Assembly: GCF_028009165.1 (NCBI RefSeq)
Contig: NW_026611614.1
Coordinates: 1-64,000 of the forward strand
Length of the DNA stretch: 64,000 nucleotides
Direction of reading: 5' to 3'
Source of the DNA: Akanthomyces muscarius
Lineage: Eukaryota; Ascomycota; Sordariomycetes; Hypocreales; Cordycipitaceae
This document shows positions 11,384 through 40,546 of this stretch, piece by piece. The position numbers were made by a program, and so were the translations under genes. Numbering within the stretch: position 1 is the stretch's first letter; every line of letters begins with the position of its first letter. A model generated the notes under the pieces. It was not told where the DNA came from. It worked only from the letters and a program-made list of their open reading frames with translations, and searched no databases.

Positions 11384-14299
11384 CTATGGCCGGCCTTGTC
11401 TCTGCTGTTTCCGAACCTTCTGATCGATCTTTGTGAATAAAACACACATCTGGTTGCTCTCCATTCCCTGCCGCCCCTCTACCCTTCTCCCCATCCATTG
11501 ATAAAATGCCGCCGTGCCTGCCTCTGCGCCGACCTTGCCGGCAACCCACCGCTCATATATGAAAATCGTCGCGCCTAACACGCGAATTAACAACCCGCCG
11601 TGCTGGCACACGCCGTCCTCCAACCTCTGCCACCGACCTTTATCGCCCTCTACCGCCCGCCATTGTTCGCATATTTTCTGCGGCAACCCACATTCCCAAC
11701 ACCCACTGAACCGTTCCATCCGCTGCTTGGTCCATACCTCCTTCTCTAATGCCGCCCTCGCCTCCGTCACCTGCCGCTTTAATGTGCCTGCCTGCATCCT
11801 CACACAATCGGCTTCGTCGTGGTCGTCCGCCCGACCTATCAACCGGCACACCGCGCATCGTCCTGCCGCCCAATCCTCTAAATGGATCTCAAACTCGCTC
11901 CACGTCTGCGCCTCCTCCATCTGCCTTGTCAACGCTGCGCACTCGGCCACCCGTGCCGCGGCCGCCTGCCGCTCTATTGTCGGCCTTGCTTCGCTGTATG
12001 CCCACTCCGCCGCCTGCACTGTATCCTCCTTGTCTGCGGTCGCCGCCGCCTCCCCGCACACGTCGCACACCTCTTCGCCTTCGCCGCATTCCTCCCGGTC
12101 CACCTGGCCGTCCATCGTCCTGTCCAACGTGATCCGCCGACACTGTCTCTTGCTCGTGTACTCCACCGTCGCCGCCTCCCGTGCCCACGGGCCCTCCTCC
12201 GCTGCCCCGTCTGTGATCGGCCCACACACCACTACCGACCGGCTCCGTCGTCCATCCCGCCCGGCCCGCCCGCTCTCCTGCACTAAATCCCGGATCCGTC
12301 GCGGCATCCATGCGTGCACCACCAACCGTACGTCCGGCACGTCGATTCCCATCCCCAACGCATTTGTCGCCACAATCACCCGCTCGTCCGCCTTCCACGC
12401 CTCCATCATTCGACTTTTCCCGTCTCGCGTGTCGGCGCTGCTGTAATATGCGCTGCATCCTAACGTCGCCGCTAACGTTCGCACACGCTCTACCGTCCCT
12501 GCGTATATAATCGCCCGCCCTCCGCTGTCTTCCGCCTGCCATGTCTCTATAACCTGCTGAACCCGCTTGTTCTCGGCTTCCTCCTGCCTGGCCTGGGCTG
12601 AACCCGTCTTGTTGCCCGTCGTCTTACCTGTCGTCTTGTCTGCTTGTGTCTCCACGTCCCCACCCTTCACCACGTCCACCCTGTACGTAATGTTTCGACG
12701 TGTCGTCGGCGATCGGAATACGCGACAACTTTGCATCTCCACCGCCGCCACTTCGGCAAACGCCGCTATCTCCGCCGGCCCCAACGTCGCTGTCAAAAAC
12801 ACCCGCTGTATACCCCAATCCCGAATCACCTGCCCGACCTTCCTCATCTTCGGTCGAAACGTCGCACTCGCGTCTAATAACGTATGGCACTCGTCCACCA
12901 CCACGCGGTCTAATACCCCTTGCTTCTGTAACCGGTACACGTAATCGCCAAATCCCTTCGTGCATGCTGACTCTGGCGTCACGAACACCACGCTGCTGTG
13001 CGCTATGCCACGTCCGCTCTGCCACACGCTTGATGTGATGCCCGCCGCCTGGCAACGCGTATGTAAATCCTCCTGCAATGCCACCAACGGTACAATCACA
13101 ATTGTCGTGCTGTCTGGTGAACAATACGCCGGCAACATGAATGATACGCTTTTGCCCTCCCCGGTACTCGCAATCTGTAACACCGCCATATCGCCCTGCA
13201 CGATCGACTGCACCACCGGCTCCTGCTGGCCGCGGAACCTCGCACCGGCCCCGACCATTTGCTGCAATGCGCCGGCCGTGTTGATATGCTGTATCCGCTC
13301 GAACCGTCGCCGCTTGGCCTCGCTTCTTTCGTTATCGTATCGTTCCCTCTTCCGCTTCGCCCCCGGCTGCACCGTATGCCCGCCCCGAAATCCGAACAAC
13401 CGGTGCCACCGCTCGCTGACCGAACGGAACCTCTCTCGCATCGCCGCCGTCCCGTTCGTGTTCTCGAACATATCACGGGCGTATATCATACCCGCCACGT
13501 GTGACCCGTGCCCGGCCTGTAAATCCACCGGGTCGTCGTCGATCCCGTCTTTATCCTCGTATCCCTCCGAACTCTCCGCACTGGCGCCCAAAAACCGCCG
13601 CGCGATCGCGATCGCCATGTGCCGCCATCCCGCGATCGACACCTGGCTTCCCACATACCGCTCGCTGTACCCCTGCATCACTCGCCGTACCCTGTCTGTC
13701 GTCCATTTGCGCTCGCGGATCCAATCTTGCCAATCTGTCGGCAATGATGATGCGCACGATATCATCGACCGGCCCGACTCGCTCTCGTACCCGTCGTTCT
13801 CTCTGTCGCTCCCGCTGTGGTACCCTTCGTCCTCCCCGGGCTCGCCCTCCAACACCTGCGCCGCCCACAAAAATGCACTTACACGCCCCGCGCCCTTGAC
13901 GATGCCTTGAATCCTTTGCCAAAACGGCAACACCAACCATAAATACCACACTAATAACTCCCCCACTTCACGGGGCAAAAAACGATGGATGATCTTCGCC
14001 TCGTTGGTCTGGCGGAAATTCTTGTGGTATGCCGTTACGAACCCGACCTGCTCGTGGCTGATGAATATGTTGCGTGCCCCGCCGTTGCGCGTGTTGCGGA
14101 ACCGGATCTCTAACGACTCGCTGGCCCGCGCCGGCTGGCCCGACGTCATATGCATTAAACACCACATCACTTCCCGGAATCGTTCGACACACCGCTGGTA
14201 CCGCCGCACGGCCTGCTCTCGTAACGGGGTTCGCAAACTGCTCTTGGCCGTGATCCACGCGCGCCGATGCTTCTCCTGCTCCACGACACGATGTATCAC
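11384..14299 (-). CDS. Telomere-linked RecQ-type helicase with tyrosine-recombinase-like N-terminal segment
   Basis: A 971-codon open frame. It is the downstream part of a locus that begins at 15472; the two parts are in the same frame and separated only by TAG at 14321-14323. The first codon given is GTG, so translation from here alone is doubtful. Residues 50-275 carry the recombinase-like signature: R58-x-x-E61, the R226 box (GWRHMAIA), then H264 and Y273 with eight residues between. The helicase follows: FRGQQ near 355, Walker A ASTGEGKS at 377-384, DECH at 469-472, FLTATLG near 501, ATNALGMGID near 644, QESGRAGRDG at 674-683, and the RecQ zinc cysteines C720, C738, C745 and C748. The C-terminus has the family cysteine module CAVC near 815 and CWECGLP...C at 867-877. 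All helicase motifs are intact. Telomere-linked RecQ helicases are known from several fungi. Confidence 0.88.
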   Translation of the reverse strand: MIHRVVEQEKHRRAWITAKSSLRTPLREQAVRRYQRCVERFREVMWCLMHMTSGQPARASESLEIRFRNTRNGGARNIFISHEQVGFVTAYHKNFRQTNEAKIIHRFLPREVGELLVWYLWLVLPFWQRIQGIVKGAGRVSAFLWAAQVLEGEPGEDEGYHSGSDRENDGYESESGRSMISCASSLPTDWQDWIRERKWTTDRVRRVMQGYSERYVGSQVSIAGWRHMAIAIARRFLGASAESSEGYEDKDGIDDDPVDLQAGHGSHVAGMIYARDMFENTNGTAAMRERFRSVSERWHRLFGFRGGHTVQPGAKRKRERYDNERSEAKRRRFERIQHINTAGALQQMVGAGARFRGQQEPVVQSIVQGDMAVLQIASTGEGKSVSFMLPAYCSPDSTTIVIVPLVALQEDLHTRCQAAGITSSVWQSGRGIAHSSVVFVTPESACTKGFGDYVYRLQKQGVLDRVVVDECHTLLDASATFRPKMRKVGQVIRDWGIQRVFLTATLGPAEIAAFAEVAAVEMQSCRVFRSPTTRRNITYRVDVVKGGDVETQADKTTGKTTGNKTGSAQARQEEAENKRVQQVIETWQAEDSGGRAIIYAGTVERVRTLAATLGCSAYYSSADTRDGKSRMMEAWKADERVIVATNALGMGIDVPDVRLVVHAWMPRRIRDLVQESGRAGRDGRRSRSVVVCGPITDGAAEEGPWAREAATVEYTSKRQCRRITLDRTMDGQVDREECGEGEEVCDVCGEAAATADKEDTVQAAEWAYSEARPTIERQAAAARVAECAALTRQMEEAQTWSEFEIHLEDWAAGRCAVCRLIGRADDHDEADCVRMQAGTLKRQVTEARAALEKEVWTKQRMERFSGCWECGLPQKICEQWRAVEGDKGRWQRLEDGVCQHGGLLIRVLGATIFIYERWVAGKVGAEAGTAAFYQWMGRRVEGRQGMESNQMCVLFTKIDQKVRKQQRQGRP

Positions 14300-14320
14300 A
14301 TACCCTTCGCCGGTCCGCGC

Positions 14321-14323
14321 CTA
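14321..14323 (-). other. In-frame amber codon splitting the helicase gene
   Basis: TAG read on the minus strand between GAG and GCG. I tested nearby GT-AG pairs for an intron that would remove it. The pairs tried (34, 50, 76 and 118 bases) do not keep frame, so an intron is not supported. Confidence 0.8.
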
Positions 14324-15472: not shown

Positions 15473-15587
15473 CGCGTCAACTGCCGCTTAATGTACATCC
15501 CGTCGCAGTATTAGTGTTATAGTAGTAGTGGGCTGTTAATTGCTGTTTTTTAACCGCTAATCAGCTATCTAGCCCACCATCCATCTA

Positions 15588-18500
15588 TCAGCCCTGGCGC
15601 CGAATGGCCCTATAGAGTATCGCGTTGTCTTCATCCTTCTCATTGAACCACTCCATGAGTAAACTCATACCTATGCATAAGTTATTCGTCTCCATCCCAC
15701 CCCAGTCTTCCCTCTGCTTTTCCCCGATCCGCAGCACGTCTTGTATATGGTATGGTGTCTTGGGCGCTTTCCCTGCTAACCATGAGAAAATATTCTCCAC
15801 GGCTTCCTTTGCACCAGACATCGCAGTTCCTAAAACTTGCGCTAGTAGGTTGGGGTATTGGCACGATGTGGCCGTGGTCCGCCGTATAGCCACCCTACTA
15901 TCTTCTCCGATATCAACCCAGCGGCTACATACCTGGAATGGTAGCCCGCATTCTTGGCATCCGGAGTATCGGCCACGTCGCGCTGCCTCACTCAGCCATG
16001 TCTGCACTGCTTTAATATCTTTGTTGATTATCCTCTCTGCACTGGTGCGGTCTGTCGCCCGGGGACAGACTGATGGATCCTCGTCGTCGGCGTAGTGGTG
16101 AGGCTCATTGTGGACCAGGCAGAATATACAGCTATACTCCCAATGTCGTAACTGCTCCTTGAATATATGTCGCACCCATGCGTCTTCTCTAACCCTCTCA
16201 GTCTTTTGCCAATAGAGGAACTCTTCCTTCCGTTTCTCTAGGAAAAGAGCCGACGTTGTTGCCTCCTGCGTTGTATAGTCTGTGCTCGGATGCTGTCGAG
16301 TGGTCAACGTGCTCTTGCCTAACTTGTTGTCCTCGTCGCTAGTGATCGACCGCTCTGAGCCACCCCATCGTAGGCTAGTGTCGCTCCAAGGTGGGTTGAG
16401 GGGGGCATTCTGGCTTGTTAATGCCCCCTGTGCTGTATTGTCCGCGCTTGGAGGTTGTTGAGTGGTCAACGTGGGCTCTACTGTCTGTTGCCCCTTGGCG
16501 CTGGTGGTCGACCGCTCTGAACCACCCCAACGTAGACTGTCGTCGCTCCTATGCACATAGATGGGGGTATCTTGTCTACGGCTGCCATCTGCTGCTGTCT
16601 CTGGCAGTTGTGGTGTATGCATCTGGTTGCGGTCGCTTTGTTGGGTGTTATCTGCACCGCTACGACAGGCACGAACGCTATTCGTGGGGAACGTCAGGGG
16701 TATAGCCCTTCTGCGTCTCTGAAACAGCTGGGCGGCTACCCTAGCCGACGCCACTGTTGCCGTCCTGTGAGACTCTTCCAGCTGTGGCTGAATTTCGGTC
16801 TGAGCGGCGACTGCTACTGGTAGCACCCCCCTGCAAAGACGCTTACTAGCCGGGCCGTTGTGGAGGACTATGTCATCGTCAATTGCGGCGGCGGCGTCGT
16901 CGTCGTCACTGCCACTGCTGTTGTGATTGATCGCGGTGTGGCTGTGCCTCTCTCGTTTTAGCGACGCCTGTGGATGACTTTCTGTAGTGCCACGGCGAGA
17001 GCCAGCCTTACTAGGGATACGGAGAAACTCATGCCATCGTGTGGACGCCCATTGATATAGGTTTAGCAACTGTGGCTGTAATGTGGTCGGGAATGCGCCG
17101 TCCAGCCCGTAGGTGGACCCTCGTTGTCTTGGTCGGTGGCCCGCTTGCCAGGCGAAGATGATGTTCCGGTCAGCCGCTGCGCTCTTGTCATCGTACTGGT
17201 TGAAAGGCTCGTACACCTCCCGGACGTGTTTCTCCGTGACGCCGATAGAGAGCTGACGATAGATGCGCGAATTGACTACTTGGCCCCATTTCTCAACCGT
17301 AACGGTCTTGAGCGTTTTGTTGAATCGTGCGGATGGCCACGGCTTGCTGTCTGGCATAGGGTGCGACCGAAAGAGCAAAGGTGAGCTCGACAGGAGGGGC
17401 ATGTGGTGTACCTCGCGGTAGAGAAGGTCTATAAAGGGCCGTATGTATACTAGATACTTGAAGAGGGCGATGCTTAGTTCGGCCCCGAGGAAGCGGGCGA
17501 CGATGAACTCGTGGTTGGTCGACCGTTTAGCCTTGTGGTGCCGCGAGATGTACATAAGCTGGGACCCGTACACGAAGAGACCCCGTGGGCCATACTCAGT
17601 ATTTTGACACCACAAGCTTAATAGCTCTGTCCATCGCGCGGCCTGGCCACCCTGGGTTTGCATGGCCACGCCGGCGGACGTGCGGAATGCCTCTTCCTTC
17701 TTGAGGTATGCTTTAACCGCTTGCCGATCCCAGCGACCGCGCTTTGACAGGCCTGTCCGCCGAGTAGTGCACGCATGCTCTGCCAGCTGCAGATATGCTG
17801 ATGTCAGCTTGTTCGCCGGCTCGGTAACAAACGAGTATCCGCTTGCTGTATTTGCTATGATATCCTTGATGCCTGCAAGGTCAACGGCCGGTCCTAGCCC
17901 TAGCATCAGCTCGTCACAGAGTCTGCCTGACTCCTCAAGATAATACTGGGCAACGAGGCGGAACTGTGCCATGGGCAGCCACGCAGAGTCGTTCCAGCGC
18001 ACCGAGCCGCCGTCATCACTCCAGAAGAGAAGGACAGGAGGCGCGTCTGTTCGGGCTATCACGCGGCCGTAGTTCATCAGGCTGAATAGCTCGTCAAACG
18101 ATGATGGGGCTCCCATGACCATGAAGCGCTGTCGGACGCTATTGAGCAGCTGGAGGGATTCGGTATGTGGTCTTTTGCTGATTGCTAATGCTTTATACGG
18201 CCGTATTGGGAGTATGCTCTCTAGGAATAATAGTCGTTGGTTGTAGAGCTGGGCGGCGAGGTAGGGTGTATATGATCGCGCGGATAGGAAGCTTTGGCGC
18301 GCGTCCGAGAACCCCAAGATGCCGCTGAAGAAGACGATTGTCAGCGATGCTGGGTTGTCGTGTAGTGGCTTTTCCTTGCAGAGCGCAAGGCTAATTCCAA
18401 ACAATAGCTCGAGCAGTCTTTCCTGGTCTGGGCCTTGTTTGTTGTCCGCAGTTGGACGGTAAGTAGTCCATCCTCCTTGAGCCGCCGTAATAGCTGACTT

Positions 18501-20093
18501 CTTCAGTGCCTCGTTCTCATAGTCTGCCGTCATCGAATTGTCCGTCTCGTAACGAGAGTCATCGTCCGTGGTGTCAATAATATCTTCCTCCTCCTCCTCC
18601 TCCCCTTCCCCGCTCTCACCACCTTCTTCCACTTCCACTTCTTCGTCTCCTTCTCCTTCTTCTTCTTCTTCTTCTTCTTCTTCTTCTTCTTCTTCTTCTT
18701 CTTCTTCTTCTTCTTCTTCTTCTTCTTCTTCTTCTTCTTCTTCTTCTTCTTCTTCTTCTTCTTCTTCTTCTTCTTCTTCTTCTTCTTCTTCTTCTTTATC
18801 CTCGTTATTATCGCTATGCTCTCCGCAACCGTGCTGTACATGATCGTAGACATGACGAGTTATATGGGCGCCGGAAGGATGCTGTACCCCTGTTTCACGC
18901 TCTGCCCAGTAAGTGTCCTGCCAGAGCGCATCAATCAGTTGCGTTGTAGCTTTGTCGAGTCGGAGGCCGGTTAGCTGTCGCCGTAGAGGCGCAACCATTC
19001 GGTAAAGTCGGAGGACGAACGCCAACAGCTTCCGCTGGAGCACCCTGTACCGCTGGGTCGTTGTGGCTAGCCTGACTAGGCTGAAGGGCTTGGGGGCGGC
19101 GGTGTCCGGTTTTACGCTCTTGAGCCAGCGGCGGATATTATGGCTGGTTCTTCGTGCTGTCTCGTCGCACCGTTCCATCATAGGATCGACCAGGGCCACG
19201 ATGGAGGCAATTCTAGCCTCGTCGTCCGCTGTGGTTACTAGGCCGCCCTCCCAGTCGGGCGTGCCTTGGCCGACGACGAGTGGGAGAGCGCGAAAACGCT
19301 GGTTGGCCTGCTGCTCGGGCAGGGATATGAGCTGCAGGAGGGCGGCCCGGTCGCGGCCATGGAACATGGCCTCCCAGCACGTTCTCTCCATCCACGGGCT
19401 CTCTTCGCCAAAGGTCATCCTCCGGCCACTAGCTTGTGCTGGTGTGCCGTTAGACTGGGCGGCGTCCTGGAGGGATTCAATCCGTGCCATGACCTTGGCC
19501 TCGTGTTGCCTGACGGATAGGAGATGCTCTGCCGAGACTGCAGAGTGAAATGGGCGCACTGTGCTGCCGTTGTGGCTGATCAGCCAGTACTGCGACCTGG
19601 GGCCACGACACCACGTCTGAAGGTAAACGTATTCGATGAGCTTGTCGATCTCCGCGAGACGAGGCCGTCCGCATGCCGCCGCAGGACAGACGGGCTTGGT
19701 GCTTGGGTTATCGCTGTCGGGGTCGGTGTCGCGGTCGCGGTTGAGGCGAGAGTAGTGGCGCTTCAGGATACCGAGGTTGATGTTCCGCTCGCCGCAGGAA
19801 GTGCAGTAGTAGCCGTCGACTACCTGCAGGTGTGGGTGCTGTGGCGATCCGTCGGGTCGGGGCTGCACATTGGCTGGGTCGGGGCTGTAGAGTTGGAGCT
19901 GGCGCAGAATGCTCGTTAGGTGCCTTCGTTGCCGTAGCGGGACCTGGTGCTTGTCCCGGAGGTGCGTCGAGGGACGAGAACCCTCCACCGGTAAGGCCGT
20001 CTTGCAGGTATCGCGACAGCAGAGGAGGACGTTGGCGTCATAGTCCACGGTGAGAGCGAGATCGCTTAGGTATCGTAGCTGGGGATTGCTCAT
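15588..20093 (-). CDS. OrsD-like zinc-finger / tyrosine-recombinase-like protein with CGLP C-terminal module, no helicase
   Basis: About 1501 aa from ATG 20093; the open frame extends a little further upstream but without another ATG. The N-terminus has two cysteine/histidine fingers (CCRDTC...H...H; CTSCG...H), matching the OrsD-type zinc region of fungal proteins. A central domain is shared with neighbours, interrupted by a run of roughly 47 glutamates. Near residue 820 comes ARWTELL, then SRIYRQLSIG, then GH at 985-986 followed by Y995 (His-x8-Tyr), as in tyrosine recombinases. After a Ser/Thr/Gln-rich linker the C-terminus carries CIFC...H...C and CQECGLP...C, the same module as the helicase paralogue, but the helicase itself is absent. 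It lies 115 bp upstream of the truncated helicase locus and is co-oriented with it. Confidence 0.8.
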   Translation of the reverse strand: MSNPQLRYLSDLALTVDYDANVLLCCRDTCKTALPVEGSRPSTHLRDKHQVPLRQRRHLTSILRQLQLYSPDPANVQPRPDGSPQHPHLQVVDGYYCTSCGERNINLGILKRHYSRLNRDRDTDPDSDNPSTKPVCPAAACGRPRLAEIDKLIEYVYLQTWCRGPRSQYWLISHNGSTVRPFHSAVSAEHLLSVRQHEAKVMARIESLQDAAQSNGTPAQASGRRMTFGEESPWMERTCWEAMFHGRDRAALLQLISLPEQQANQRFRALPLVVGQGTPDWEGGLVTTADDEARIASIVALVDPMMERCDETARRTSHNIRRWLKSVKPDTAAPKPFSLVRLATTTQRYRVLQRKLLAFVLRLYRMVAPLRRQLTGLRLDKATTQLIDALWQDTYWAERETGVQHPSGAHITRHVYDHVQHGCGEHSDNNEDKEEEEEEEEEEEEEEEEEEEEEEEEEEEEEEEEEEEEEEEEEEEEEEGEGDEEVEVEEGGESGEGEEEEEEDIIDTTDDDSRYETDNSMTADYENEALKKSAITAAQGGWTTYRPTADNKQGPDQERLLELLFGISLALCKEKPLHDNPASLTIVFFSGILGFSDARQSFLSARSYTPYLAAQLYNQRLLFLESILPIRPYKALAISKRPHTESLQLLNSVRQRFMVMGAPSSFDELFSLMNYGRVIARTDAPPVLLFWSDDGGSVRWNDSAWLPMAQFRLVAQYYLEESGRLCDELMLGLGPAVDLAGIKDIIANTASGYSFVTEPANKLTSAYLQLAEHACTTRRTGLSKRGRWDRQAVKAYLKKEEAFRTSAGVAMQTQGGQAARWTELLSLWCQNTEYGPRGLFVYGSQLMYISRHHKAKRSTNHEFIVARFLGAELSIALFKYLVYIRPFIDLLYREVHHMPLLSSSPLLFRSHPMPDSKPWPSARFNKTLKTVTVEKWGQVVNSRIYRQLSIGVTEKHVREVYEPFNQYDDKSAAADRNIIFAWQAGHRPRQRGSTYGLDGAFPTTLQPQLLNLYQWASTRWHEFLRIPSKAGSRRGTTESHPQASLKRERHSHTAINHNSSGSDDDDAAAAIDDDIVLHNGPASKRLCRGVLPVAVAAQTEIQPQLEESHRTATVASARVAAQLFQRRRRAIPLTFPTNSVRACRSGADNTQQSDRNQMHTPQLPETAADGSRRQDTPIYVHRSDDSLRWGGSERSTTSAKGQQTVEPTLTTQQPPSADNTAQGALTSQNAPLNPPWSDTSLRWGGSERSITSDEDNKLGKSTLTTRQHPSTDYTTQEATTSALFLEKRKEEFLYWQKTERVREDAWVRHIFKEQLRHWEYSCIFCLVHNEPHHYADDEDPSVCPRATDRTSAERIINKDIKAVQTWLSEAARRGRYSGCQECGLPFQVCSRWVDIGEDSRVAIRRTTATSCQYPNLLAQVLGTAMSGAKEAVENIFSWLAGKAPKTPYHIQDVLRIGEKQREDWGGMETNNLCIGMSLLMEWFNEKDEDNAILYRAIRRQG
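18655..18796. repeat. (TTC)n microsatellite encoding poly-glutamate
   Basis: About 47 uninterrupted TTC/CTT triplets on the plus strand, read as GAA on the minus strand within the 1501-aa gene. It is in frame, so length changes would alter only the acidic tract. Poly-Ser and poly-Lys frames here are artefacts. Confidence 0.97.
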
Positions 20094-20138
20094 GATTTCT
20101 CTATTTGGCGTCAACGAACTACTGCGGTCGGCCACCAC

Positions 20139-20593: not shown

Positions 20594-23500
20594 CTAGGGG
20601 ACGGCCAGTCGCATGGCGATATCCGGAGCTACGGGATCCGCTACACGGAGGAACGCGTGCCATTGCCGTGAAACATCATGATACATGCGAAGAAGCCCAG
20701 GTTGAAGCTTGTCAGGGAATGCGCCATCCAGGCCGTACGTCGAGTGCCTTTGCATTGGCCGATGGCCGCTCTGCCACGCGAACGCAATGTTGTCATCCCA
20801 TCTAGAAGCCGTCTCGTCATAGCGGTTAAAAGTAGTGGCACCGATAACGTGTTTCTCTACAATGGCTACAGACAGCTGCCGGTAGAGCTGGGCGCCTATA
20901 CCCGGTGGTACTGCAGGTAAGTCCAGAGCGAGCTGCTTGAGGTGCTTTGAGAATGTGGATGTCTTCCATGTGTAACCTGTAGCCGCTGGTGAAAATAGAA
21001 GTGCTTCCTCTTTGTCTGCATGGAGGCAAACACGGCGTAGCATAGACACCGTTGGCTGGATATAGACAAGGTACTGGTATAGAAGCTCACCCAGCCGAGT
21101 AGGCAGGAATCTCGCTACTTGAAACTCGCTATTGGTACTGAGCCGACTTTTCACATGACGAGTGATACAGCAGGCTGACCCTCGGTGGAAAACCACACCT
21201 CGAAGCTGAGAAGATGTGTTGACGCGAAGAAGCGTCAAGAGTTCAGAAATGCGGCTGCCCTGGCCACCATATCCATGGACGGCTATCATTAAATCTTTTA
21301 AAAGCGCATCATGCTTCTCAATGTAGCTTATGACTGCGCGCAGATCCCATCGCCTTGTGCCGTCCCCAATACGGTCTTTTCGTAATAACCCATCTATTGG
21401 CGCGATGCAAGCTCTTTTCACAAGCTGTATGTACGCGCTCGACAACCCGTTGGCGGGGTCTGTCACGAAGGAGTAGCCGGCAGACCTTTCTGAGATTCGG
21501 TCTCGGAGTTCCCGGACCCGCGGTGGAGGAGGTTGCCAGCTGTATAGCAAGTGCTCACTCTGCTTGGCAACCCGTTCGGTCGCTGCAGCCAGGAGGTTAC
21601 GAAACCCGTCCATGGTCAAATGGTGCTTCCCATCCCAGGAGATCTCCTCCCCGTCCTCGCTCCACTCAAAGAGAAACGCAGGGCCATCTGCACGGCTCAG
21701 ACTTATGCCGTACGCCAAGAGGCTGAAAAACTCACCAAGAGGCGCGAGGGTGCCGTCACACATCTTCTCACGTCGCACACGGCAGAGGAGGTCGAGCTGG
21801 CCACGTCTCGGCCGCGCCGGCAGGCCAATATACTCATGGGCCACACGAGGCAGGGTACCTTCTAGAATGATGAGGCGTGCGCAATAGATGAAGCCTGAGA
21901 GGTGCGTTGTATAGGTCGCCGGGCGTGCAAATTCAGCCCCGTTGTCGCCAGAAAGGCCACACACAGCGCTAAAGTAGACGAGCAGCGTGGAGCTTGCTTG
22001 GCCATCGTCGAACTCTTCCATGGCCATGAAAAGACAGAATCGCAGCACAACATCTAGCTGTCGATCTTGCGCAGGCTTCGTAGTAGCCTCCTCCTCCTGG
22101 CCACTCTCCGCGTCAGGATCGCTCACTGGGCTTGCGCGGCCTGACTCCATGTAGGATGAGGGCGGCGTATTCGCCTCCTCCTCATCGTCGCCGTCATCTG
22201 CACTGTCGTCTTGGAAGTCAGAGTCTTCCCTACTGCTGCCATCGCTATCGGAGTCGTGCTCAGACTCGGAGCTGGAACCGCTGAGCAATCCATAGTTCAT
22301 GTCATTGTGCTCTCCCACCCCGGCGGCTGGAGAGAAATTCATTGTATCGTTGACACATGGGTCGGAGGCAGTCCCCGGATCCATTCGGGTCCCATGGAGG
22401 CCGCGTGTGCGGCGGACGCCACCGGTGAACTCGACAGTCCCTGACCACACCGGATCTTCCCATAGCTTCTGTAAAGCCTGGCCCTGCTCAAAGGTAATGC
22501 TCCGTCTCGTTACCGCCTTGGCGGAGGCACGGGGCATGCGCCATAGTCGCAGCCACATGCAGAGACAACGCTTCAGAAGACGCCGATACTGGCGCTCGGA
22601 GCGCTCATGCACGACGAGCTGAAACGGCGCCTTGTATGGTCGGTCGATAAACCTACCACGCAGCCATCGTCGTATGGCCGTGTCGGTATGAGCCACTGTA
22701 TCTGCGCATCGATCAAATAGTCTATCGAGCGCGTGCATGATAGTTTGGAGTCTTGCTTCATCTTGTGCCGGACTTTCCAGTTGGACACAGCCGTACGCAC
22801 CAAGATAGTACGGTCCGTCTGCCGCCGGCGTTTGATACAGTGCAATGAGAAGGCGCCGGTCCGCCTGCGCGAAGAGCGTCTCCCACTGCGTTCGGCGCAT
22901 CCAGTTGCTCACGAGGAGAAGGGAAGGCTGTTCCCGCACCGTTCGAGGAGTAGATTGCGTAGACGACGGTAGAGGCGAAGATAGCGATGTGCTGGTGAGA
23001 CGATGCAGCTCAGCGTCGCAGATCGCCTCGGCCTGCCTATCCAACTCGGCGTCCTTAACAGCCAGGGCCGCCAGGTCGGTTGTGCCAGCAGTCGGGTCGG
23101 CAGACACACGCCAAGCGGCAAGGATGTCACCAGGGAGCCAGCTCTGGAAGTGGATGCCCTCCTGGAGGTGCTCTCGCAGCCACGGTTTGGACGAACGTCT
23201 CGCTGTGATCTCGCGAGGATGCTGCTTCTTCAGGTGTCGGGAGAGGAGGTCTAGGCTTGTGGAGCGAAAGCGGCAATGAGAGCATGAAGCCGCTTTCTGC
23301 ACGGCCAGGTGCGGATGCTGCGGACAGCCATCTTCCCTGGGTGGCAGCTGGCGAGGGTCAGGGAGCTGCAGCGCGTTGATGAGCTTGTTCAAGCCGTGTC
23401 TTGCCTTTCTCGGGATACCATGCTTCTCCCCAAGGTGCCGAGACACACGGTCTTTGTCCGCCTTTAAGGCGAAGCCACATTCGATGCATATAATCGCTAA

Positions 23501-24390: not shown

Positions 24391-24525
24391 ATGGTCAGCT
24401 ATGGGTATGCCTTGACGAAAGAGCAGATCCAGGATGCCGAGGAGGAAATCTCGCGGGAGGAATCCACATACAGATTCGCTAGACAAGTGGACAGGCCATC
24501 CATCGGGCGTCAGTTAACCAACTAA
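24391..24525 (+). CDS. 44-codon relic resembling a helix-turn-helix transposase N-terminus
   Basis: ATG 24391 to TAA 24525. The short product has LTKEQIQDAEEEI followed by YRFARQVDRPSIGRQL, a pattern like the psq-type helix-turn-helix at the start of pogo-family transposases. No downstream transposase follows, so at best it is a fragment. It could be chance. Confidence 0.3.
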   Translation: MVSYGYALTKEQIQDAEEEISREESTYRFARQVDRPSIGRQLTN

Positions 24526-30170: not shown

Positions 30171-30977
30171 GGCAATCCTTCAAATCACGTAGTTGGGTAC
30201 CTGTATACACGTTTTATTTTCAAACTTGGTTATTATTATAGCAAGAGAGCATAGAGATAGCTGTGTTGGGTCCTATTGCAACCGCATCCTTCTATCTAGG
30301 GTAGAGCCCCTGGGCGCAGACAGGAAAGAATGTGCGACGACACCACCGCTTGGCCATTGTTGTCTCTTTCCACCCCCTATTCTGCGCCTGTACACTCGCC
30401 GTACAAAGAACGAGCGGGTGCAGTGTGGTAACGCGTCGCAGTTGAACAGATCATCTCTTCTTTGTTTACACATGGCCGTCACAATCACACGAGGCTGAGC
30501 TATGGACAAGGGGTCCGACCGAGCATTTCGACCAACGGGAGGTACTGTGGCTTTGACAGGGGTACCGACCATCCATTTCCATGGTCTGCATTGGCTGCCT
30601 TGCCCTTGGTGGGGAAAACGCGCTCGTTAGGAGCCGGGATGTGTAACGCTGCGGCCCGTGCCGTATCGCAGCTTGATATCTGCGTCGTCTCGAGCCAGAT
30701 CTGCTTCTGCTCCATCCTACCGCACGTTAACAGGAAGATGGCATGCGCAATCCGGAATACCACTGATTTGCAGTCTAAAATCTTCGTAGAGCCGACCAAA
30801 ATGTCCATTACAATCTGCTACAGTCAGCTATCAACTTTTTAGAGCGTGCATCCTTACCGCCCGTTCGCTGTTCCCACCTCTTGCTCTTACTCTTGCTAGT
30901 CACTTCACTTTTTTTTCTGCCAAGTTTTTTTCTATTTGCTATCCAACTGTCTAACCCGACCCCAAACCGCCCCCTAA
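30171..30977. other. Intergenic, no supported gene
   Basis: Upstream region of the gene starting at 30170. Several 100-125 codon frames occur on both strands but lack recognisable domains and overlap each other. The last 100 bases are T-rich and lead into the LINE fragment. Confidence 0.45.
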
Positions 30978-31273
30978 TCTAGCGCCCTCTATTAGCTAGA
31001 ACACACACTCTAGCGCCTCAAGCAGCTAGAACACACACTCTAGCGCCTCTATCAGCTAGAACACACATCTTAGCACCTTCCACAGCTAGAACACATATTC
31101 TAGCACCCTCCCTCCACCTACCCTACACTACCTCCTACCCTATACTACCTACCCTATACTCTCTTTCTTAGGACACTCTCCTTTTTACTTTCTTTCTTTA
31201 CTATTACTTTCTCTAAATGTATTATTAGAAAATTCCCGAGCGAGCTAGCTTAGATAACTCAATTTACAGTGTC
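30978..31273 (+). mobile_element. Third, 5'-truncated copy of the telomeric LINE (296 bp)
   Basis: Matches 6993-7288 with a constant offset and no indel seen, all in the 3' untranslated region. It ends TTACAGTGTC and is followed directly by CTAACCCTAACCCT. It lies 31 kb from the present end, so it marks a former telomere or a block moved with its telomere junction. Confidence 0.95.
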
Positions 31274-32481: not shown

Positions 32482-33102
32482 CTAGTCTCCAAGAATCGTT
32501 CTGTCATCACACACCTCAAACCACTGCCGAAGCTTTCTCCTCCGGGAAAATCGCTGGCATCGAACACCCTCTCGCCATGGCACCCGAAACGGACGCCCCC
32601 TGCTGGCCTTGGTTGGTGCGCCCATCCGCCGCTCGCTGAGAAGTCCATGCACCTCCCGACAGTGCAGCTGCATATTCCTCGCATTCCCACATGCGTGGCT
32701 ACAGCGGCTGCATTTTAGTTTGGCGGTGGGTGCTTCTAGATACGGAATCGCCTTCCGTACAGACACTGGTATCGTGTACTTGGCCAGTTCCGCCTCCGTT
32801 TGAAACATGCCTGGCAGCTGGCACAGTGTGTATGCTGCTCGGTTCCGCTGCATTTCTGTGATGGCCTCGAAATGCTGTCCGCGAATATGGCTTCGTCCGG
32901 ATGACACCAAGATCGCCGTCTTACATAGTGAGCAGAACACAAATGGGTATGCCTTGTCGTAGATGTACGGCCATATGTCCTCCTCGGTTACGCCTGGCGC
33001 AATCTCTTTTTCCTGGGCAGCGGCCGCCGGCTCTGGCGCGGACATGCTGATAGTTGATGGCTGGATAGACGTGGGGAATATTGTTGGGCGTGTATTCGCC
33101 AT
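32482..33102 (-). CDS. Short OrsD-like zinc-finger protein
   Basis: 206 aa from ATG 33102. After an Ala/Pro-rich start it has FCSLCKTAIL...HIRGQHF and CSRCSHACG...HCREVHG, the same finger pair and similar flanks (WPYIYDKAYPFVF) as the start of the neighbouring 765-aa protein. It ends after a basic segment (SRRRKLRQWFEV) that also occurs in the neighbour (RGSRSVWFEV), so it is the N-terminal module alone. It may be a truncated copy of the neighbour or a free regulatory version. It is 81 bp from the next gene and co-oriented. Confidence 0.75.
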   Translation of the reverse strand: MANTRPTIFPTSIQPSTISMSAPEPAAAAQEKEIAPGVTEEDIWPYIYDKAYPFVFCSLCKTAILVSSGRSHIRGQHFEAITEMQRNRAAYTLCQLPGMFQTEAELAKYTIPVSVRKAIPYLEAPTAKLKCSRCSHACGNARNMQLHCREVHGLLSERRMGAPTKASRGRPFRVPWREGVRCQRFSRRRKLRQWFEVCDDRTILGD

Positions 33103-33183: not shown

Positions 33184-35481
33184 CTACAAAAGACATGTCC
33201 GCATAATCTGCCCAAACCTCTCCAGCTCGAAAACTAGCAACGCGAAAAAGCTGCATTCTGGCTTGGTCCAGTCCGTATTGTCCTGCAGCCACGCAATCCC
33301 CTCGCGGCTCGCCAGATCGGTCCTCTCCATCGCCCAGCTGATCTTCACCCGGGCCACCACGCAAGCAGCGCCAACGCGGGACCTGGCTAGTACGCTAGCT
33401 GCCACGTGCCGTAGTAGCCTCTCGTCCTGACATGAACCCTCCGGCACCCTGGGTCGGAAAAAACGACCCGGTATATGCTCAAAGCTCTCGCACCGCCATG
33501 CTGGTAGACCGCACCGCCAACAACCCGACCCAATCTCCCAGCCATGCTGCCCTGCCCCTGCCAGCTCCTTCGTCAGCACGAGATCCCGTATGAGCTCCTC
33601 GTGCATCCTCGCCAGCGCCCATGGGCGGCTGCCTCGGCGTGGACATGCGTCGGCTGTGTGTGGTGCTGTCGCATGGGGCGGACGAGCCTCGGGGGAGAAC
33701 CAGCATACGGCGCATCGCCCACGCCAGCTGCTGTGAAGTCGCCGGAACGCTGTGGCCCTGCTGCGGTTGTCCCCTGTCTGGTAGCCCTCCAGCCACGTTT
33801 GATACGCGTCCTGCTCCCACGGACTGATCTCTGCGTGCCACACACCACCCTCCCTCCACTCAGTCTCTTGAGCAACACCGTCGTGGAAGAGAGACATATT
33901 GTCCATCACCGGAATACGAAGCTTGCTCTGCTCTGCGAGTGGACTGCTGTAGATGGGTACCGGACGATGCTCCGAGCCCTTCTTCGCCATCTTCCGCTGA
34001 GATGGATTGGTGGTGTCTGTGCCTGCTCGCTTTCGCAGCGCACCTACTGCGGCCGCCTTGATCGCCAAGTCGGGCTCCGCTAGCAGTGGTGGGATATCAT
34101 CCTCCTCAAACACATCAAACCCAAAGTCGGCCTCGTCAGGTGGTGTGATCTGCCCATGTTGTACTATGGCCGTCCTTGCTTGTGGTGTTTGAAATGCCTC
34201 TAGCCGCTCGGGCGGTGTGTCAAACACCAAGTCCTGCTGAGCACAACTAGAGCGATAGTGTGGCGTGTAGGTTGTGTGTGTGTGTGTTGTGTGTGTGCGT
34301 GCTGTGTGCGCCAGTCCGTTGCCCGTTGTGCCCACCGTGCCCGCCGTAAGACGTAGACATGCCCCCGCAAGCTTCTCCGGCGTGAACCCAGACGTCTGCG
34401 CGCCGGACGAGCCCATGTGAATCCATAGCGCCGCGATGCGAGCCCAGTATACGAGATCCTCGCTGCGTAGCCGCTCATCTGGAAACCCAGACGCGTCCAC
34501 ATCCACGCTGTCCCAGTCCTGGCGGAGTCCACACCGGCCACAACGCGGTTCGTCGTCCAAGCTCTGTCTGGGCGCCTCTGCCCTCCCTGTGCCTGGGCCC
34601 TCCGTGTCCTGCGTGCAGCGGACCCGGAATGTCCGTACGGTGCATAGCACACATGGTACGCTGAGCGTCTGTATGGCGATCCAGCTCGCGTCGACGTGCG
34701 GCGCTGTGTTGACCTCGGGCCGCGTCTCTCTTGAGATCGGCTCTATCTTGCTAGTATGATGATCTGGCTTGTCTATAGCGGTATTCTCGGCCGTGTTTGT
34801 GCTCGGGGTGTCTGCTGGACTGGATGCGTGCTCGCCCTCTTGGCTTCTGACGTCGTGTTGGCCTGTGATGAATGAGTCTTTACCTGGGCGCAGTCCTTGG
34901 AGTGACGAACCGTTGTCCTCCACGATACTGCTCTGGTCTGGGCCGGGCAGAGTATCGGAGCTCTGCTCTGGCGCAACTTCAAACCACACACTGCGGGAGC
35001 CTCGCGCGAAGAGCTGCTGACACCACACGCCTTTCCGCCACCTCGATTCGTTGAACAAGCTGCCGACTGGCCCGTGTGTGTGCATCCGCGCGCGTAGCCT
35101 GCTCGTGGTGATCCACTGGCAGTCCAAGCATTGCCGTCCGTTACGTTCTGGTGGACGTATGTGTGGAATGGGGGCGTTATGTCGATTGGGTAGCTGGAAA
35201 TGCTTTGCATCCTCTTTCGACTGGTACATTCCGGGGAGTCGGCTCGCGACCTTTCGCACCACACGGCGTTGCCTTATCGGTATGCTATTGTGCACATCCT
35301 TTATATGGTCAGTGATAGATGGCACGAGCACGGCGTACTGGCAGAGCCGGCAGAATAGAAATGGGTACGCCGTATCGTGGAGAAACGGGTAGAGTGGCTC
35401 CAAGTCGCCTTCTATCGCGCGCATGGTGATGCTGTGCTGTACTACGCCCACATAGTACCAACACACACGGTTCAGCATCAT
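33184..35481 (-). CDS. OrsD-like zinc-finger protein with CGLP C-terminal module
   Basis: 765 aa from ATG 35481. The N-terminal finger is C44-x2-C47-x11-H59-x4-H64, and a second finger is CLDC...H. A long low-complexity middle includes a His-Thr run from a GT microsatellite near 34270-34305. The C-terminus has CAVC...ADAC and CWRCGLP...C, the module shared with the helicase paralogues. The recombinase-like and helicase parts are missing, so this copy joins the first and last modules directly. It is an adaptor-like version or an internal deletion of a longer gene; the frame is intact, which favours use. Confidence 0.75.
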   Translation of the reverse strand: MMLNRVCWYYVGVVQHSITMRAIEGDLEPLYPFLHDTAYPFLFCRLCQYAVLVPSITDHIKDVHNSIPIRQRRVVRKVASRLPGMYQSKEDAKHFQLPNRHNAPIPHIRPPERNGRQCLDCQWITTSRLRARMHTHGPVGSLFNESRWRKGVWCQQLFARGSRSVWFEVAPEQSSDTLPGPDQSSIVEDNGSSLQGLRPGKDSFITGQHDVRSQEGEHASSPADTPSTNTAENTAIDKPDHHTSKIEPISRETRPEVNTAPHVDASWIAIQTLSVPCVLCTVRTFRVRCTQDTEGPGTGRAEAPRQSLDDEPRCGRCGLRQDWDSVDVDASGFPDERLRSEDLVYWARIAALWIHMGSSGAQTSGFTPEKLAGACLRLTAGTVGTTGNGLAHTARTHTTHTHTTYTPHYRSSCAQQDLVFDTPPERLEAFQTPQARTAIVQHGQITPPDEADFGFDVFEEDDIPPLLAEPDLAIKAAAVGALRKRAGTDTTNPSQRKMAKKGSEHRPVPIYSSPLAEQSKLRIPVMDNMSLFHDGVAQETEWREGGVWHAEISPWEQDAYQTWLEGYQTGDNRSRATAFRRLHSSWRGRCAVCWFSPEARPPHATAPHTADACPRRGSRPWALARMHEELIRDLVLTKELAGAGQHGWEIGSGCWRCGLPAWRCESFEHIPGRFFRPRVPEGSCQDERLLRHVAASVLARSRVGAACVVARVKISWAMERTDLASREGIAWLQDNTDWTKPECSFFALLVFELERFGQIMRTCLL

Positions 35482-35899: not shown

Positions 35900-38653
35900 C
35901 TACAATCCCGCGACACGCATCTGTGGTCCGTAAGCTTTACGCAGAATCCTCACCCATAACATATGCATGTTTGTCCCTCTCGTATCCATGAATCTTTGTC
36001 GGCCAGCAAGCCATTGTACGAACGCCGCCTCGTCGCTCAGATCAATCGCGAACTCGTCGCGTATCCATGCCGCCTGGCGCGTTATGCTGGCCGCCACCAA
36101 TATTACAGGCAGCACCTTGTCCGCGTACACACATCGATCCCTCTCACCCCTGTCTGCTTTAGCCTGCGCGCACCAATCAAGTGGCAGCTTGCAGGTGAAG
36201 CAGCAGGAGTGCGCGGCGAACCGGAGTCTCGCTCGGAATACCCGGTGCGAGACCATCCCCGAATGCAGCGCGGGACATGCTGCCCCGAGCGCCTCGTGTG
36301 CGCCCACGTCCTGGCCATAGTCTACGCCGTGTCTGTCTAGACCGCCCTCTTCTACTAAGAAAGCCTTGATATAACATGCAGCGCACGAGTCTTTGACCTC
36401 CTCTAGCCACTGTCGAGCCATGCGCTCGTCTGCGGTTCGAGCTCGAACGTCTTCCTGGAACACACTCGCGTTGGCGGCGTGGCCCCGGGCGCGGGTCTCC
36501 TCCGTATCAGCCCGCCGTGCAAGAGCGTCTGTGCCTACGTCCCTACCCCTGACCGCCACGGGCGCGTCCTCCCGTCTCGTGTCCTGCCAACCCCTCCCTG
36601 CCTCTGCCACGTAGCGTGGTGCACACTGGTAGCATGGCACCGCGCCGTCTACATCACCACAGCACTCACCTAGCACGCCGTCCATGATCATCGCAATCTG
36701 CTCACGGACACAGCCGGGCGCAGTTGCCACCGTCCACATCGCGTGCTGGTTCCTAAGTGACACGCTGGTGATGCCCTTGGCCTCAAACGGCCGCACCCCG
36801 TCATAGATGACAATACACTGCACCGTCTGGCCGTCCTGCCGCGCGCCTCGCCCGGTTTGTTGTATATAGTCGACGAGTCCATATGGTATGCCCTGGTGTA
36901 CGATGACCACGATCCCGCCATAGTTCACGCCGGTGCCGAGCCCAGTCGTGGCGGCTATCACGGGGCTCGCCTGACCCGACAGCCAGAGCGCGATGACTCC
37001 CTTCCGCTCCGCGTCGCTCATCTCGCTATGGTGGCAGAGACAGCCTAGCTCCTCTGCGATAGCGCGGCAGTCGGCAATAGATTTGCAGTACACCACGCAT
37101 TTCTCCTGGCTTGCTATAGACGCCATCGCCTGCCTGATAAACTGGACCGTCGCCTTCTCTACTGCGCCCTCCTTCCTCCCGACTTGTATAAACTCGTATC
37201 GTGCGTTCGTCTTTGTCGTTCGGTCGCGTATAATGGCTGCGTTGGGTAGTAGAACCATCGCGCGGAAGTCTCGCTCCATAGTCTTCATGAGCGTCGCCGT
37301 GAGCATCACCATGGGCCGTGTGAAGCGATGCAGCTCCTTGAGCTTCGTAAGCGCTTCCCTGTACGATGAGTCTGTGATCGCCACGTGTGCCTCGTCGACA
37401 AAGATACGCTGCAGGTGCCCGCCGTGCGCGAGCCTGTCCACATATGCCATAAAGAGCTCGTCCTCAGCGACAGCCGTGTCAGCACTCACAAACACAAGCC
37501 GCGGCACGTATGGCATCGCCTCTCGCGTGACCACCTCGCTGCTACGGAATTGGATCGCGTCCACGCCCTTCTCCCTGGCTCGCCCGACAAGATCGTCAAT
37601 AAGCGTGGAGAACGGCACGATAACGACGGTCGTGCCCCGACCTGCCATCACCGCCGGCGCCATAAACAAGTTGCTCTTACCCGCCCCAGTCGGTAACACG
37701 CAGATTAGATGCTGCGCGCCCTGTAGCCGTAGAATCGCGTGCATGCACTCTTTCTGCTTATGCGAGCGCCACGTTGCCGCCTCGCCCTCGAGCGCCTGTA
37801 GAGCCACGAGAGCTTCGGCCTCACTATCGCCCGTCTCCACCGCCGTGTCCTCCGTGCCGCTATCCCGCTCTGTCTGCGCTCTCCTGCCCCACGGCTGTAG
37901 CGGCGTGCCCTTGTGTAGAAACGCGTGCCATAGCCGGCTGACCTCGTGAAAGTTGCGCAGCAGCGTCGGTGTCAGGTGGCCCGGCATGCCGATGTGCACA
38001 GCATAGTGCTGTCGGGCTGTCCGTGTGCTGTGCGTGCTCTGCAGATCCCACACGATGTTCCAGCTTCCGCCGACGTGGAGGAGCTCGCCAGATAACTCAT
38101 CCACCTCGAAACCCTCATTGTTCTCGTCCTCGATACGCCTCTCCATCTCCGCGAGCTGCAGCCCCTGCACGATGCGGCCCATCTCAATCACCATGATACG
38201 GTACCGCGCCACGCCGAGCCGCACGCCGACCGCCGTGCCCATCTCTCGCTGCAACAGCGCGCTCAGCTTCTCTGTGTTCCACCGCGCCGACTTTCCATGC
38301 CGCCACATAAACTCCTTGTTAGCTTGGGGCGTGGCGGGAAGCTCGAGCGCCTGCTCGAGAACCTCCTCCGCCGGCAGCAGCCACGCGATATACGCCACGA
38401 ACACCCGGCCCATCGTGTCTGGCAAGAACCGTGCCACCTTGCGTCCCATATCGCGGATAGACTTGGCCTTGTCCCGGTCCGTGACCACCATGACGTGCCC
38501 GTTGTACAGAAAAACATTTCGCATCACCTGCAGCCCGTCGCAGTGCCGCATGGTCGTCACCTCGGGCCCGCGCCCTGGCATGCCGAGCCACACGTGGCCC
38601 ATCACTATGAGCAGTTCCTTCAAACGTCGTAGCTGGCTGAGCCACTTCGTCAC
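35900..38653 (-). CDS. Telomere-linked RecQ-type helicase, second copy, with recombinase-like segment
   Basis: A 917-codon frame, GTG as given start, in the same frame as 38669-40546 and separated from it by TAG at 38669-38671 plus five codons. The recombinase-like part has R28-G-P-E31, YRIMVIE with R152, and H208-x8-Y217. Helicase: Walker A LPTGAGKS at 320-327, DEAH at 420-423, LTATLM near 451, ATTGLGTGVN near 568, QQTGRGARQDG at 598-608, then a CCGD...CYQC zinc part. The C-terminus carries CAAC and CFTCKLP...C, where Lys replaces Gly of CGLP. It has diverged strongly from the first helicase copy in sequence but keeps the same order of modules. Motif VI reads GRGARQDG instead of GRAGRDG. Confidence 0.85.
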   Translation of the reverse strand: MTKWLSQLRRLKELLIVMGHVWLGMPGRGPEVTTMRHCDGLQVMRNVFLYNGHVMVVTDRDKAKSIRDMGRKVARFLPDTMGRVFVAYIAWLLPAEEVLEQALELPATPQANKEFMWRHGKSARWNTEKLSALLQREMGTAVGVRLGVARYRIMVIEMGRIVQGLQLAEMERRIEDENNEGFEVDELSGELLHVGGSWNIVWDLQSTHSTRTARQHYAVHIGMPGHLTPTLLRNFHEVSRLWHAFLHKGTPLQPWGRRAQTERDSGTEDTAVETGDSEAEALVALQALEGEAATWRSHKQKECMHAILRLQGAQHLICVLPTGAGKSNLFMAPAVMAGRGTTVVIVPFSTLIDDLVGRAREKGVDAIQFRSSEVVTREAMPYVPRLVFVSADTAVAEDELFMAYVDRLAHGGHLQRIFVDEAHVAITDSSYREALTKLKELHRFTRPMVMLTATLMKTMERDFRAMVLLPNAAIIRDRTTKTNARYEFIQVGRKEGAVEKATVQFIRQAMASIASQEKCVVYCKSIADCRAIAEELGCLCHHSEMSDAERKGVIALWLSGQASPVIAATTGLGTGVNYGGIVVIVHQGIPYGLVDYIQQTGRGARQDGQTVQCIVIYDGVRPFEAKGITSVSLRNQHAMWTVATAPGCVREQIAMIMDGVLGECCGDVDGAVPCYQCAPRYVAEAGRGWQDTRREDAPVAVRGRDVGTDALARRADTEETRARGHAANASVFQEDVRARTADERMARQWLEEVKDSCAACYIKAFLVEEGGLDRHGVDYGQDVGAHEALGAACPALHSGMVSHRVFRARLRFAAHSCCFTCKLPLDWCAQAKADRGERDRCVYADKVLPVILVAASITRQAAWIRDEFAIDLSDEAAFVQWLAGRQRFMDTRGTNMHMLWVRILRKAYGPQMRVAGL

Positions 38654-38668
38654 GCCCTTGCGCTTCCA

Positions 38669-40546
38669 CTAGTTCAGTCGGGCGTCGAACAGTGCTGACT
38701 GCGATGCCTGGATGGCCAGACGTGCCCCGGAGCGTAGCCACGCATTGGCCTTATTCGTCGCGAAGGACTCGCCGGCACCGAGAAATGTCGTGTCGTCCTT
38801 GATGCCCTGCAGGTCTATGTTCGGCCCGATGGTCCCCCACTGGCCGCCGAAGAGTGTGTTAGCGAGACGGTCAACGCCTAGCTGCAGCCGGCACGCGGCC
38901 CGTTGAAACTCGTGGATGCGAAGATGCTCGCCGTTGTGGATGAGCGTCTCGTTGTCGTCAGTCCACCGCACGCTCGCCGTTGCTAGCGTCTTATTACGGT
39001 GCCCTTTCGCGTATGCCATCCAGTTGATCATGGTATTAACCACAGTGAAGCGGTCCACGCAGAGCCATGCAGCGTGCTGCGTCGCGAACTGCTCCATCTT
39101 CTCCACGGGAATCTCCTCAGCGTCTAGCGGCATGTCCCGGAACGCATCCTCAAGAAAGAACAGTCGAAGCACCCATAACATGGCGGCCACCATCCCGGAG
39201 AAGAGCCCCGCGGGCTGGAACCCTCCGCCGCCCGTCCGGATCGCCATGGCTGCGAAGAAGCACAGCAGCGCGTTCGTGTATAATGCCCCGCCCACCTTGA
39301 CCTTGACGGATGCCATTATGAACTGGAAGAGAGCTGTGTCTAGTGGCTCATAGCTTTGCGCTTGGTATTCGCTGCGTGGTGGTATACTCTGTCGCTCTGC
39401 CGTGGGACTCTCGTTTATGTCGCTGTTGTACGCTCTATCATCGTATGTGTCACCAGCGTATGGATCGCTGTGGATGCCGCCTTCCGAGCTGTCAGAGCTG
39501 TTGCAGTTGCCGATACCGCTGTCGTCCGCATCCTCTCGCTCTTGTAGTGCTTGGTGCACATCACATAGCAAGCCCCATTGCTCGTCTGTGAAGCGCATAC
39601 CTAACCGGTCGCGCGCCTCATCCTGACCCAGCCGGAACGCCCGCCAGCAGAAACATATATAGCGCTGCAGTATAATGCCGTATTTGTGAAGCGTGTTTTC
39701 GCCTGCATGCATCTTAAACGGCGTCGGGTTGCCTTTGCCTTCCTCTATGCCGTGTACCCGCTGCCGGATAGCCTTTGGCACAGCCCGGATCCGTGGTACG
39801 CACTGTTGCATCACCCTGATGATGCTCTCGCATAGCATCGCCAACTGTGCCCCTTGCTCAGCCGGTTCGTCTGCTGTGTTCACGTCCATCTCTTTGCTGC
39901 GGACCCAGCATGTCGCTTTGGCAATCACCGCACGGTCTTTTCCCTCTGTAAACTCGACCCAGCCCATATCTTTTATAAACTCGTTATCGTAGTCGGCGCC
40001 CTGGATCGCTTGGCCGGCGCGGCGCCATTGTGTATTCGCCTCGTATACTCGTTTCGCGCTGGCCTCGACAATCGTGTCTAGCATGCTCGGCGGCCGCTCC
40101 TCGCTCCCTCGCTCTGATGTGTCGCTATCGCCTATGTCGTAGCCAGAATGCCCAACAATCCAGTACCGTGCATAGCGTCCACCCATCCACGACTGCACCT
40201 GCACTGTCCGATAGCGTGGGCCTGGGGTGGTGTGGCCTGTGCTCTTCCAGTGAAGATTGGCGTTCTTTTCGGATGTTGTGATGAATGGGCACCCTTGACA
40301 CTGGAACCCTCTCTCGACCGGGATCACGGGCTGGCGTGGCCCTCCATTGCGCGGTAGTGGGCTCGTCTTGGGGTCGTTAGCCGTGCTAAGTGCGAGATAC
40401 TCTTGAATCGTCTTGAGCTCTGTCCCGGCTAGACGGTGTGTGTGTCGTAAATGATCAAATACGCCTTGGCCTGGTGTGAGCGCACGCTTACATCGTATAC
40501 ACACGACTAAATTATAGTCTCTGTTGATTTGGATGTGTTGATCCAT
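38669..40546 (-). CDS. N-terminal half of second helicase locus: OrsD-like fingers and central domain
   Basis: 625 aa from ATG 40546. Finger 1 is C16-x2-C19-x12-H32-x4-H37; finger 2 is CQGC...H...H. The central domain matches the paralogues (QGIKDD, GESFATNKANA aligns with GYSFVTDPANG). The stop TAG at 38669-38671 is followed in frame by WKRKG and the 917-codon helicase frame, so the locus would encode about 1548 aa if the stop were passed. It is the only helicase copy in the window that retains its zinc fingers. The stop may be a RIP-type CAG to TAG change, or the two halves may be made separately. Confidence 0.78.
   Translation of the reverse strand: MDQHIQINRDYNLVVCIRCKRALTPGQGVFDHLRHTHRLAGTELKTIQEYLALSTANDPKTSPLPRNGGPRQPVIPVERGFQCQGCPFITTSEKNANLHWKSTGHTTPGPRYRTVQVQSWMGGRYARYWIVGHSGYDIGDSDTSERGSEERPPSMLDTIVEASAKRVYEANTQWRRAGQAIQGADYDNEFIKDMGWVEFTEGKDRAVIAKATCWVRSKEMDVNTADEPAEQGAQLAMLCESIIRVMQQCVPRIRAVPKAIRQRVHGIEEGKGNPTPFKMHAGENTLHKYGIILQRYICFCWRAFRLGQDEARDRLGMRFTDEQWGLLCDVHQALQEREDADDSGIGNCNSSDSSEGGIHSDPYAGDTYDDRAYNSDINESPTAERQSIPPRSEYQAQSYEPLDTALFQFIMASVKVKVGGALYTNALLCFFAAMAIRTGGGGFQPAGLFSGMVAAMLWVLRLFFLEDAFRDMPLDAEEIPVEKMEQFATQHAAWLCVDRFTVVNTMINWMAYAKGHRNKTLATASVRWTDDNETLIHNGEHLRIHEFQRAACRLQLGVDRLANTLFGGQWGTIGPNIDLQGIKDDTTFLGAGESFATNKANAWLRSGARLAIQASQSALFDARLN

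Follow-up and report, generated by a model that had tools for sequence, protein, structure and literature searches.

The window analysed here, bases 1-64000 of contig NW_026611614.1 of Akanthomyces muscarius (C7 among the 12 contigs of the 36.2 Mb genome covered by our genome searches), carries four paralogous genes of a telomere-linked helicase (TLH) family: A (11384-15472), B (15588-20093), C (20594-23608) and D (35900-40546). All four, and the parts of them described below, lie on the minus strand. Each contains a segment that, as supported by structure prediction and structural alignment, appears to have the catalytic fold of the tyrosine recombinase (YR)/topoisomerase IB superfamily, and in A and D this segment is followed by a RecQ-type helicase. 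We think it probable that the TLH family of this fungus consists of highly diverged tyrosine recombinases, which would serve as the integrase of a mobile element restricted to chromosome ends. This reading is supported by the domain order, the predicted YR fold, the invariant residues, purifying selection and the repeated subtelomeric copies.

Catalytic residues

The original prediction had noticed in all four paralogues an Arg followed three residues later by Glu, then a second Arg, then a His followed nine residues later by Tyr, and we found this order in A, B, C and D. The residues are R820xxE823, R946 and H986/Y995 in B and R786xxE789, R910 and H949/Y958 in C, exactly as first numbered. 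In A they are R14xxE17, R182 and H220/Y229 of the open reading frame (ORF) 11384-14167, and in D R11xxE14, R135 and H191/Y200 of ORF 35900-38602. The spacing of nine was right in these two genes as well, but their His and Tyr numbers (264/273 in A, 208/217 in D) deviated slightly; with numbering that starts at the codon following the in-frame TAG of each gene, the values become 271/280 and 213/222. Between the two Arg stands a lysine, absent from that prediction, that is also invariant (K49 in A, K854 in B, K820 in C, K45 in D, and in a further member, E, near the end of contig C10).

We aligned the five lineages with an open catalytic part, A-E, excluding decayed copies from the count. Invariant positions made up 18 of the 228 gap-free columns and included R786, E789, K820, R910, H949 and Y958 (C numbering). 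The set R, E, K, R, H, Y is kept in 5/5 lineages (for the second Arg of D this depends on gap placement), at a catalytic-part identity of 56% between A and E, 43% between B and C, and 21-26% for all other pairs. Shuffles of single proteins (5000 for each) produced the loose motif 50 times for A, 146 for B, 63 for C and 47 for D, a rate of 1-3% that gives one protein alone little weight. With the 18 invariant columns placed at random instead, the order R+3E, R, H+9Y arose in 12 of 200000 trials, and in 4 of 200000 with the lysine between the two Arg, a figure to be taken as a guide only because the pattern had been noticed before testing.

Predicted fold and profile searches

The recombinase identity of the segment is backed by structural modelling together with the invariance just described. 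In the structural alignment of the modelled catalytic domains, all of the first 37 rows fell in a single superfamily, and 11 of the 12 rows of the weaker of the B and C models pointed the same way. Rows for Xer and the best rows for Cre stood above those for topoisomerases, by little (9.7-8.0 vs 7.3-6.5), and Ndc10 was also among the matches. H986 of B fell on position 315 of Cre in 14 of 16 rows, on 335 of XerH in 2 of 2 and on 370 of the Tn1549 integrase in 2 of 3. Both models place the lysine at, or close to, a beta hairpin, which is where it is expected in the tyrosine recombinase/topoisomerase IB superfamily.

For C (20594-23608), Foldseek returned nothing relevant (best E 0.73). Searches with hidden Markov models gave the recombinase assignment no backing. 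The Phage_integrase profile PF00589 did not match at E up to 10, a search in which the HMMER filters drop most weak matches, nor did it match anywhere in the genome at E 0.01. The DUF3435 profile PF11917 had no match in A-D, and its genome search listed two places, on C3 only; a profile of A-E compared with one DUF3435 protein gave a probability of 0.1% in what is a weak test.

Domain architecture

The members share a common plan, an N-terminal OrsD zinc region (in B, C, D and E) and a helical region, which probably binds DNA, and then the YR catalytic domain. This is followed by a RecQ-type helicase in A, D and E, and then, in A and D, by a Cys-rich C-terminus. B has no helicase but does have the Cys-rich C-terminus, and C stops after the YR domain; the YR segment is thus found without a helicase in both.

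Gene A, which has no OrsD match, consists of a helical part, the YR catalytic part (13403-14320), the helicase domain (12023-13270) and a Cys-rich C-terminal part (11441-11893) that it has in common with B (15672-16163). In B, OrsD (PF12013; 19749-20030) is followed by the modelled YR catalytic domain (16998-18032), a low-complexity linker and the C-terminal part; a 174-bp CTT repeat inside the gene (18623-18796) encodes a run of glutamates. C has OrsD (23216-23509), an acidic linker and the YR domain (20624-21676), and D has OrsD (40238-40531), the YR part (37883-38668), the helicase (36800-37759) and the Cys-rich C-terminus.

Two of the four genes had been said to continue into intact RecQ helicases. 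This holds for the helicase domains of A and D, not for the whole genes, which are each broken by a TAG. The helicase motifs read TGEGK, DECH, TATL and QESGR in A and TGAGK, DEAH, TATL and QQTGR in D. Both match TIGR00614 (E 9.6e-40 and 5.9e-34, respectively) under its curated cut-off of 219.8 bits, and their relatives in the PDB are RECQ1, RECQ5 and BLM. Judged by sequence, A and D carry a helicase superfamily 2 (SF2) core of RecQ type. The RecQ zinc-binding domain PF16124 reached E 0.14 in A and had no match in D.

The interruptions in A and D consist of exactly one in-frame TAG each, upstream of the catalytic core, while B and C are uninterrupted. The TAG of A (14321-14323) precedes the first catalytic Arg by 65 codons, and that of D (38669-38671) by 33. 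Both the YR part and the helicase come after it in open frames, with an ATG 13 (A) and 10 (D) codons before that Arg. These stops might stem from repeat-induced point mutation (RIP), lie in an intron that was not seen, or mark a place just ahead of the catalytic core where the gene tolerates being split.

Family copies and selection

The linkage to telomeres held up: A, B and C are protein-identical on three contig ends (C7, C8 and C9), and other copies lie near further ends. D occurs at 100% on C7 only. Member E has OrsD and shares 56% identity with A over the catalytic part; between the OrsD start and the catalytic part it holds six in-frame stops, the last of them 78 codons before the first catalytic Arg, then 864 open codons covering YR and helicase, then more stops. 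By eye, most subtelomeric family members seem to be read toward the contig end closest to them; E on C10 is an exception.

Selection on the YR segment, proposed earlier from the conserved spacing, found support in the nonsynonymous and synonymous divergence (dN/dS) of A vs E, which was 0.34/1.41 in the YR part, 0.27/1.39 without its acidic insert and 0.33/1.28 in the helicase. These values are rough, given the near-saturation of synonymous sites and the partial decay of E. They support similar constraint on both parts, apparently under purifying selection.

Setting of the contig end

The contig begins with telomere repeat (CTAACC)n (1-91, unstranded), and TTAGGG runs mark five contig ends of the genome. 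The minus-strand order in the outer part is A, B, C, a subtelomeric element (24056-30981), two ORFs with OrsD matches (32482-33102 and 33184-35481, both on the minus strand) and D; A lies 11-15 kb from the telomere repeats. ORF 33184-35481 shares part of the Cys-rich C-terminus with A and B and has no helicase match. From these shared parts, we infer that the two ORFs are mosaic relatives of the A-D family.

The subtelomeric element has ORFs of 820 and 497 amino acids, neither with a Pfam match above cut-off, and at least 12 other copies (98-99%) on 7 other contigs, many of them ~14 kb from the contig end. Its segments 24056-28290 and 28698-30981 are contiguous in other copies. The ~407 bp between them (28291-28697) are an insert, with 86-87% copies on C3 and C6, at which the flanking matches overlap by ~19 bp; it looks like an insertion of the short interspersed element (SINE) type, or similar, with a long target duplication. 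The outer 31 kb (1-30981) are apparently common to the ends of C7, C8 and C9, from a comparison that covered the A, B and C proteins and the DNA 23700-30981, at 100%; the C9 match ends at 30981.

Adjoining the telomere is a 1344-residue reverse transcriptase ORF (RVT_1; 2857-6891, plus strand), part of which (5156-6563) is 97% identical on one C3 end. It resembles the telomere-associated Fusarium retrotransposons FoTeR as presented in the accessible text of PMC12857005. On C3, two DUF3435 genes of the Starship captain type (411319-412610 and 549669-550960) lie ~137 kb apart and point away from each other. The two loci are nearly identical (3614 of 3624 positions equal), possibly as Starship copies or as an inverted duplication.

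Weighing the explanations

Several observations weigh against diverged recombinases as the identity of the family. The fold evidence comes from models of the B and C catalytic domains only, not A or D; these are not independent because they are built on the same few sequences, and the predicted local distance difference test (pLDDT) score is <50 in much of the stretch around the His and Tyr (model 297-317). Foldseek gave no significant match for B (best PDB match XerA, E 0.31), reached a best E of 0.25 in the viral structure library, and profile searches found no Pfam match to any YR family and no PDB profile match. The second Arg of D lines up in some alignments and is shifted by 11 in others, because of a longer loop after it in D. 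The His or Lys that commonly, not universally, stands three residues before Arg II in tyrosine recombinases is not conserved (A, R, Q, A and S in A, B, C, D and E); we do not treat it as defining for membership of the superfamily. Members fused to the helicase could be split genes or genes in decay, given the TAG in A and in D and the six stops that precede the catalytic part of E; the uninterrupted members, B and C, are those without the helicase. For A-D we found neither an element boundary nor a target duplication or an empty site, and a C3 end that lacks these genes has ~7 kb of other sequence in the corresponding stretch. Finally, other copies, on C3, C5, C6, C7, C8 and C10, mostly hold several to many TAG and TAA codons.

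We read the stops in older copies as RIP. In a scan of 11 decayed loci, of which 10 frames matched and 7 alignments listed in full gave the figures, six copies have the whole catalytic part (L004, L024, L006, L020, L010 and L022). Lys and Tyr are kept in 6/6 of these and Glu in 5/6; Arg I, Arg II and His III are each lost in 4/6, either to a stop or to another change, and many of these changes are transitions such as RIP would produce. A seventh copy (L025), which holds the first half only, keeps Arg I and Lys and has a changed Glu.

The invariance and the structural rows together bear on whether the motif is there by chance, in a segment of another fold that is a helical linker of RecQ helicases. 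The 1-3% rate in single-protein shuffles and the lack of a significant Foldseek match speak for such a linker. Against it stand the invariant-column test (4/200000), the agreement of all of the first 37 rows and of 11/12 in the weaker model, and the presence of the segment in B and C without a helicase; we regard it as very improbable. A YR-fold protein that lacks catalysis, domesticated like budding-yeast Ndc10 and binding telomeric or subtelomeric DNA beside the helicase, would account for the fold, and we consider it distinctly unlikely. Binding alone would not require Lys, Tyr and both Arg, and this view is weakened by finding all of R, E, K, R, H and Y unchanged in 5/5 lineages, with distant pairs at 21-26% identity.

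The alternative to which we give most room, while still thinking it unlikely, is a RecQ fused to an enzyme that resembles a type IB topoisomerase or processes junctions. It would be a one-polypeptide counterpart of Sgs1/BLM-Top3, with a host function in resolving telomere recombination intermediates. The present data separate it weakly from a recombinase: Xer and the best Cre rows outrank topoisomerases by little, and many diverged, RIP-like decayed copies near ends look more selfish than a host repair gene.

Relation to known systems

The family resembles the TLHs of U. maydis (UTASa), M. oryzae (TLH1), S. pombe (tlh1/2) and Fusarium in being multi-copy, with a RecQ-type helicase near the telomere, and here the RecQ gene lies close to telomere repeats and is repeated on several ends. 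Such helicases have been reported from many fungi, with a role proposed, not demonstrated, in the literature as far as accessible. OrsD is described for U. maydis UTASb in the accessible text of PMC10532341. A recombinase domain in TLHs is not stated in the accessible portions of PMC12857005, PMC4522978, PMC10532341, PMC10799480, PMC8381367, PMC11499160 and PMC6431247, a set with preprints and most subscription papers outside its scope.

With Xer, Cre and the Tn1549 integrase, A-E share the predicted catalytic fold, the order R, K, R, H, Y and the His-to-Tyr spacing of 9. Unlike these enzymes, A-E have no profile-level match or box II His/Lys, A and E have long acidic insertions, and A, D and E are fused to RecQ. 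Starship captains (DUF3435) are fungal YR proteins present in the same genome, on C3, but A-D have no PF11917 match, and we know of no helicase in the DUF3435 family. Cryptons are fungal YR transposons with short direct repeats and defined ends, and Ndc10 is a Crypton-derived, domesticated YR fold; Crypton boundaries and an insertion signature were not found at A-D, and a fused RecQ is, to our knowledge, not known in Cryptons. The protelomerases TelK and TelA are hairpin-end enzymes of phages or plasmids, unlike the proteins here, and hairpin formation is not suggested because the ends carry TTAGGG repeats. A Helitron combines a Rep nuclease with a different helicase type, not a YR with RecQ. 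Its RepHel protein, which according to the accessible text of PMC6431247 holds a DNA-breaking Rep domain and a helicase, is like A, D and E, as predicted here, in fusing a DNA-breaking Tyr enzyme and a helicase in one protein.

Proposed mechanism and significance

If the family members are recombinases, then most likely the OrsD zinc and helical parts would hold a subtelomeric site. The Tyr, activated by Arg-Lys-Arg-His, would attack a strand to form a 3'-phosphotyrosine link, and strand exchange would lead to a Holliday-junction-like intermediate that the fused RecQ motor could open or move. The enzyme would work in the manner of the recombinases of Cryptons, Starships or integrons and carry a helicase of its own.

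The putative fused YR-RecQ enzyme is, on its sequence, a new architecture within known families, with the catalytic set intact. A wider claim, which we put forward tentatively and consider rather doubtful, is that the same holds for fungal TLHs in general, which would be active tyrosine recombinases equipped with their own RecQ motor. They would then be either a lineage of mobile elements living at chromosome ends or a machine that exchanges strands and shifts junctions within one protein, and would copy, capture or reset subtelomeres. Under this claim the helicase-less B and C may be partners within a complex of several recombinases, since three different YR proteins lie in tandem on three chromosome ends. 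If the N-terminal half is indeed a recombinase, a fused YR-RecQ architecture would be added to the superfamily of Cre, Xer, topoisomerase IB and the telomere resolvases. The role of TLHs would become testable by single-residue mutants (Tyr, Arg), and their spread, their changes in copy number and their place at chromosome ends would gain a direct mechanism.
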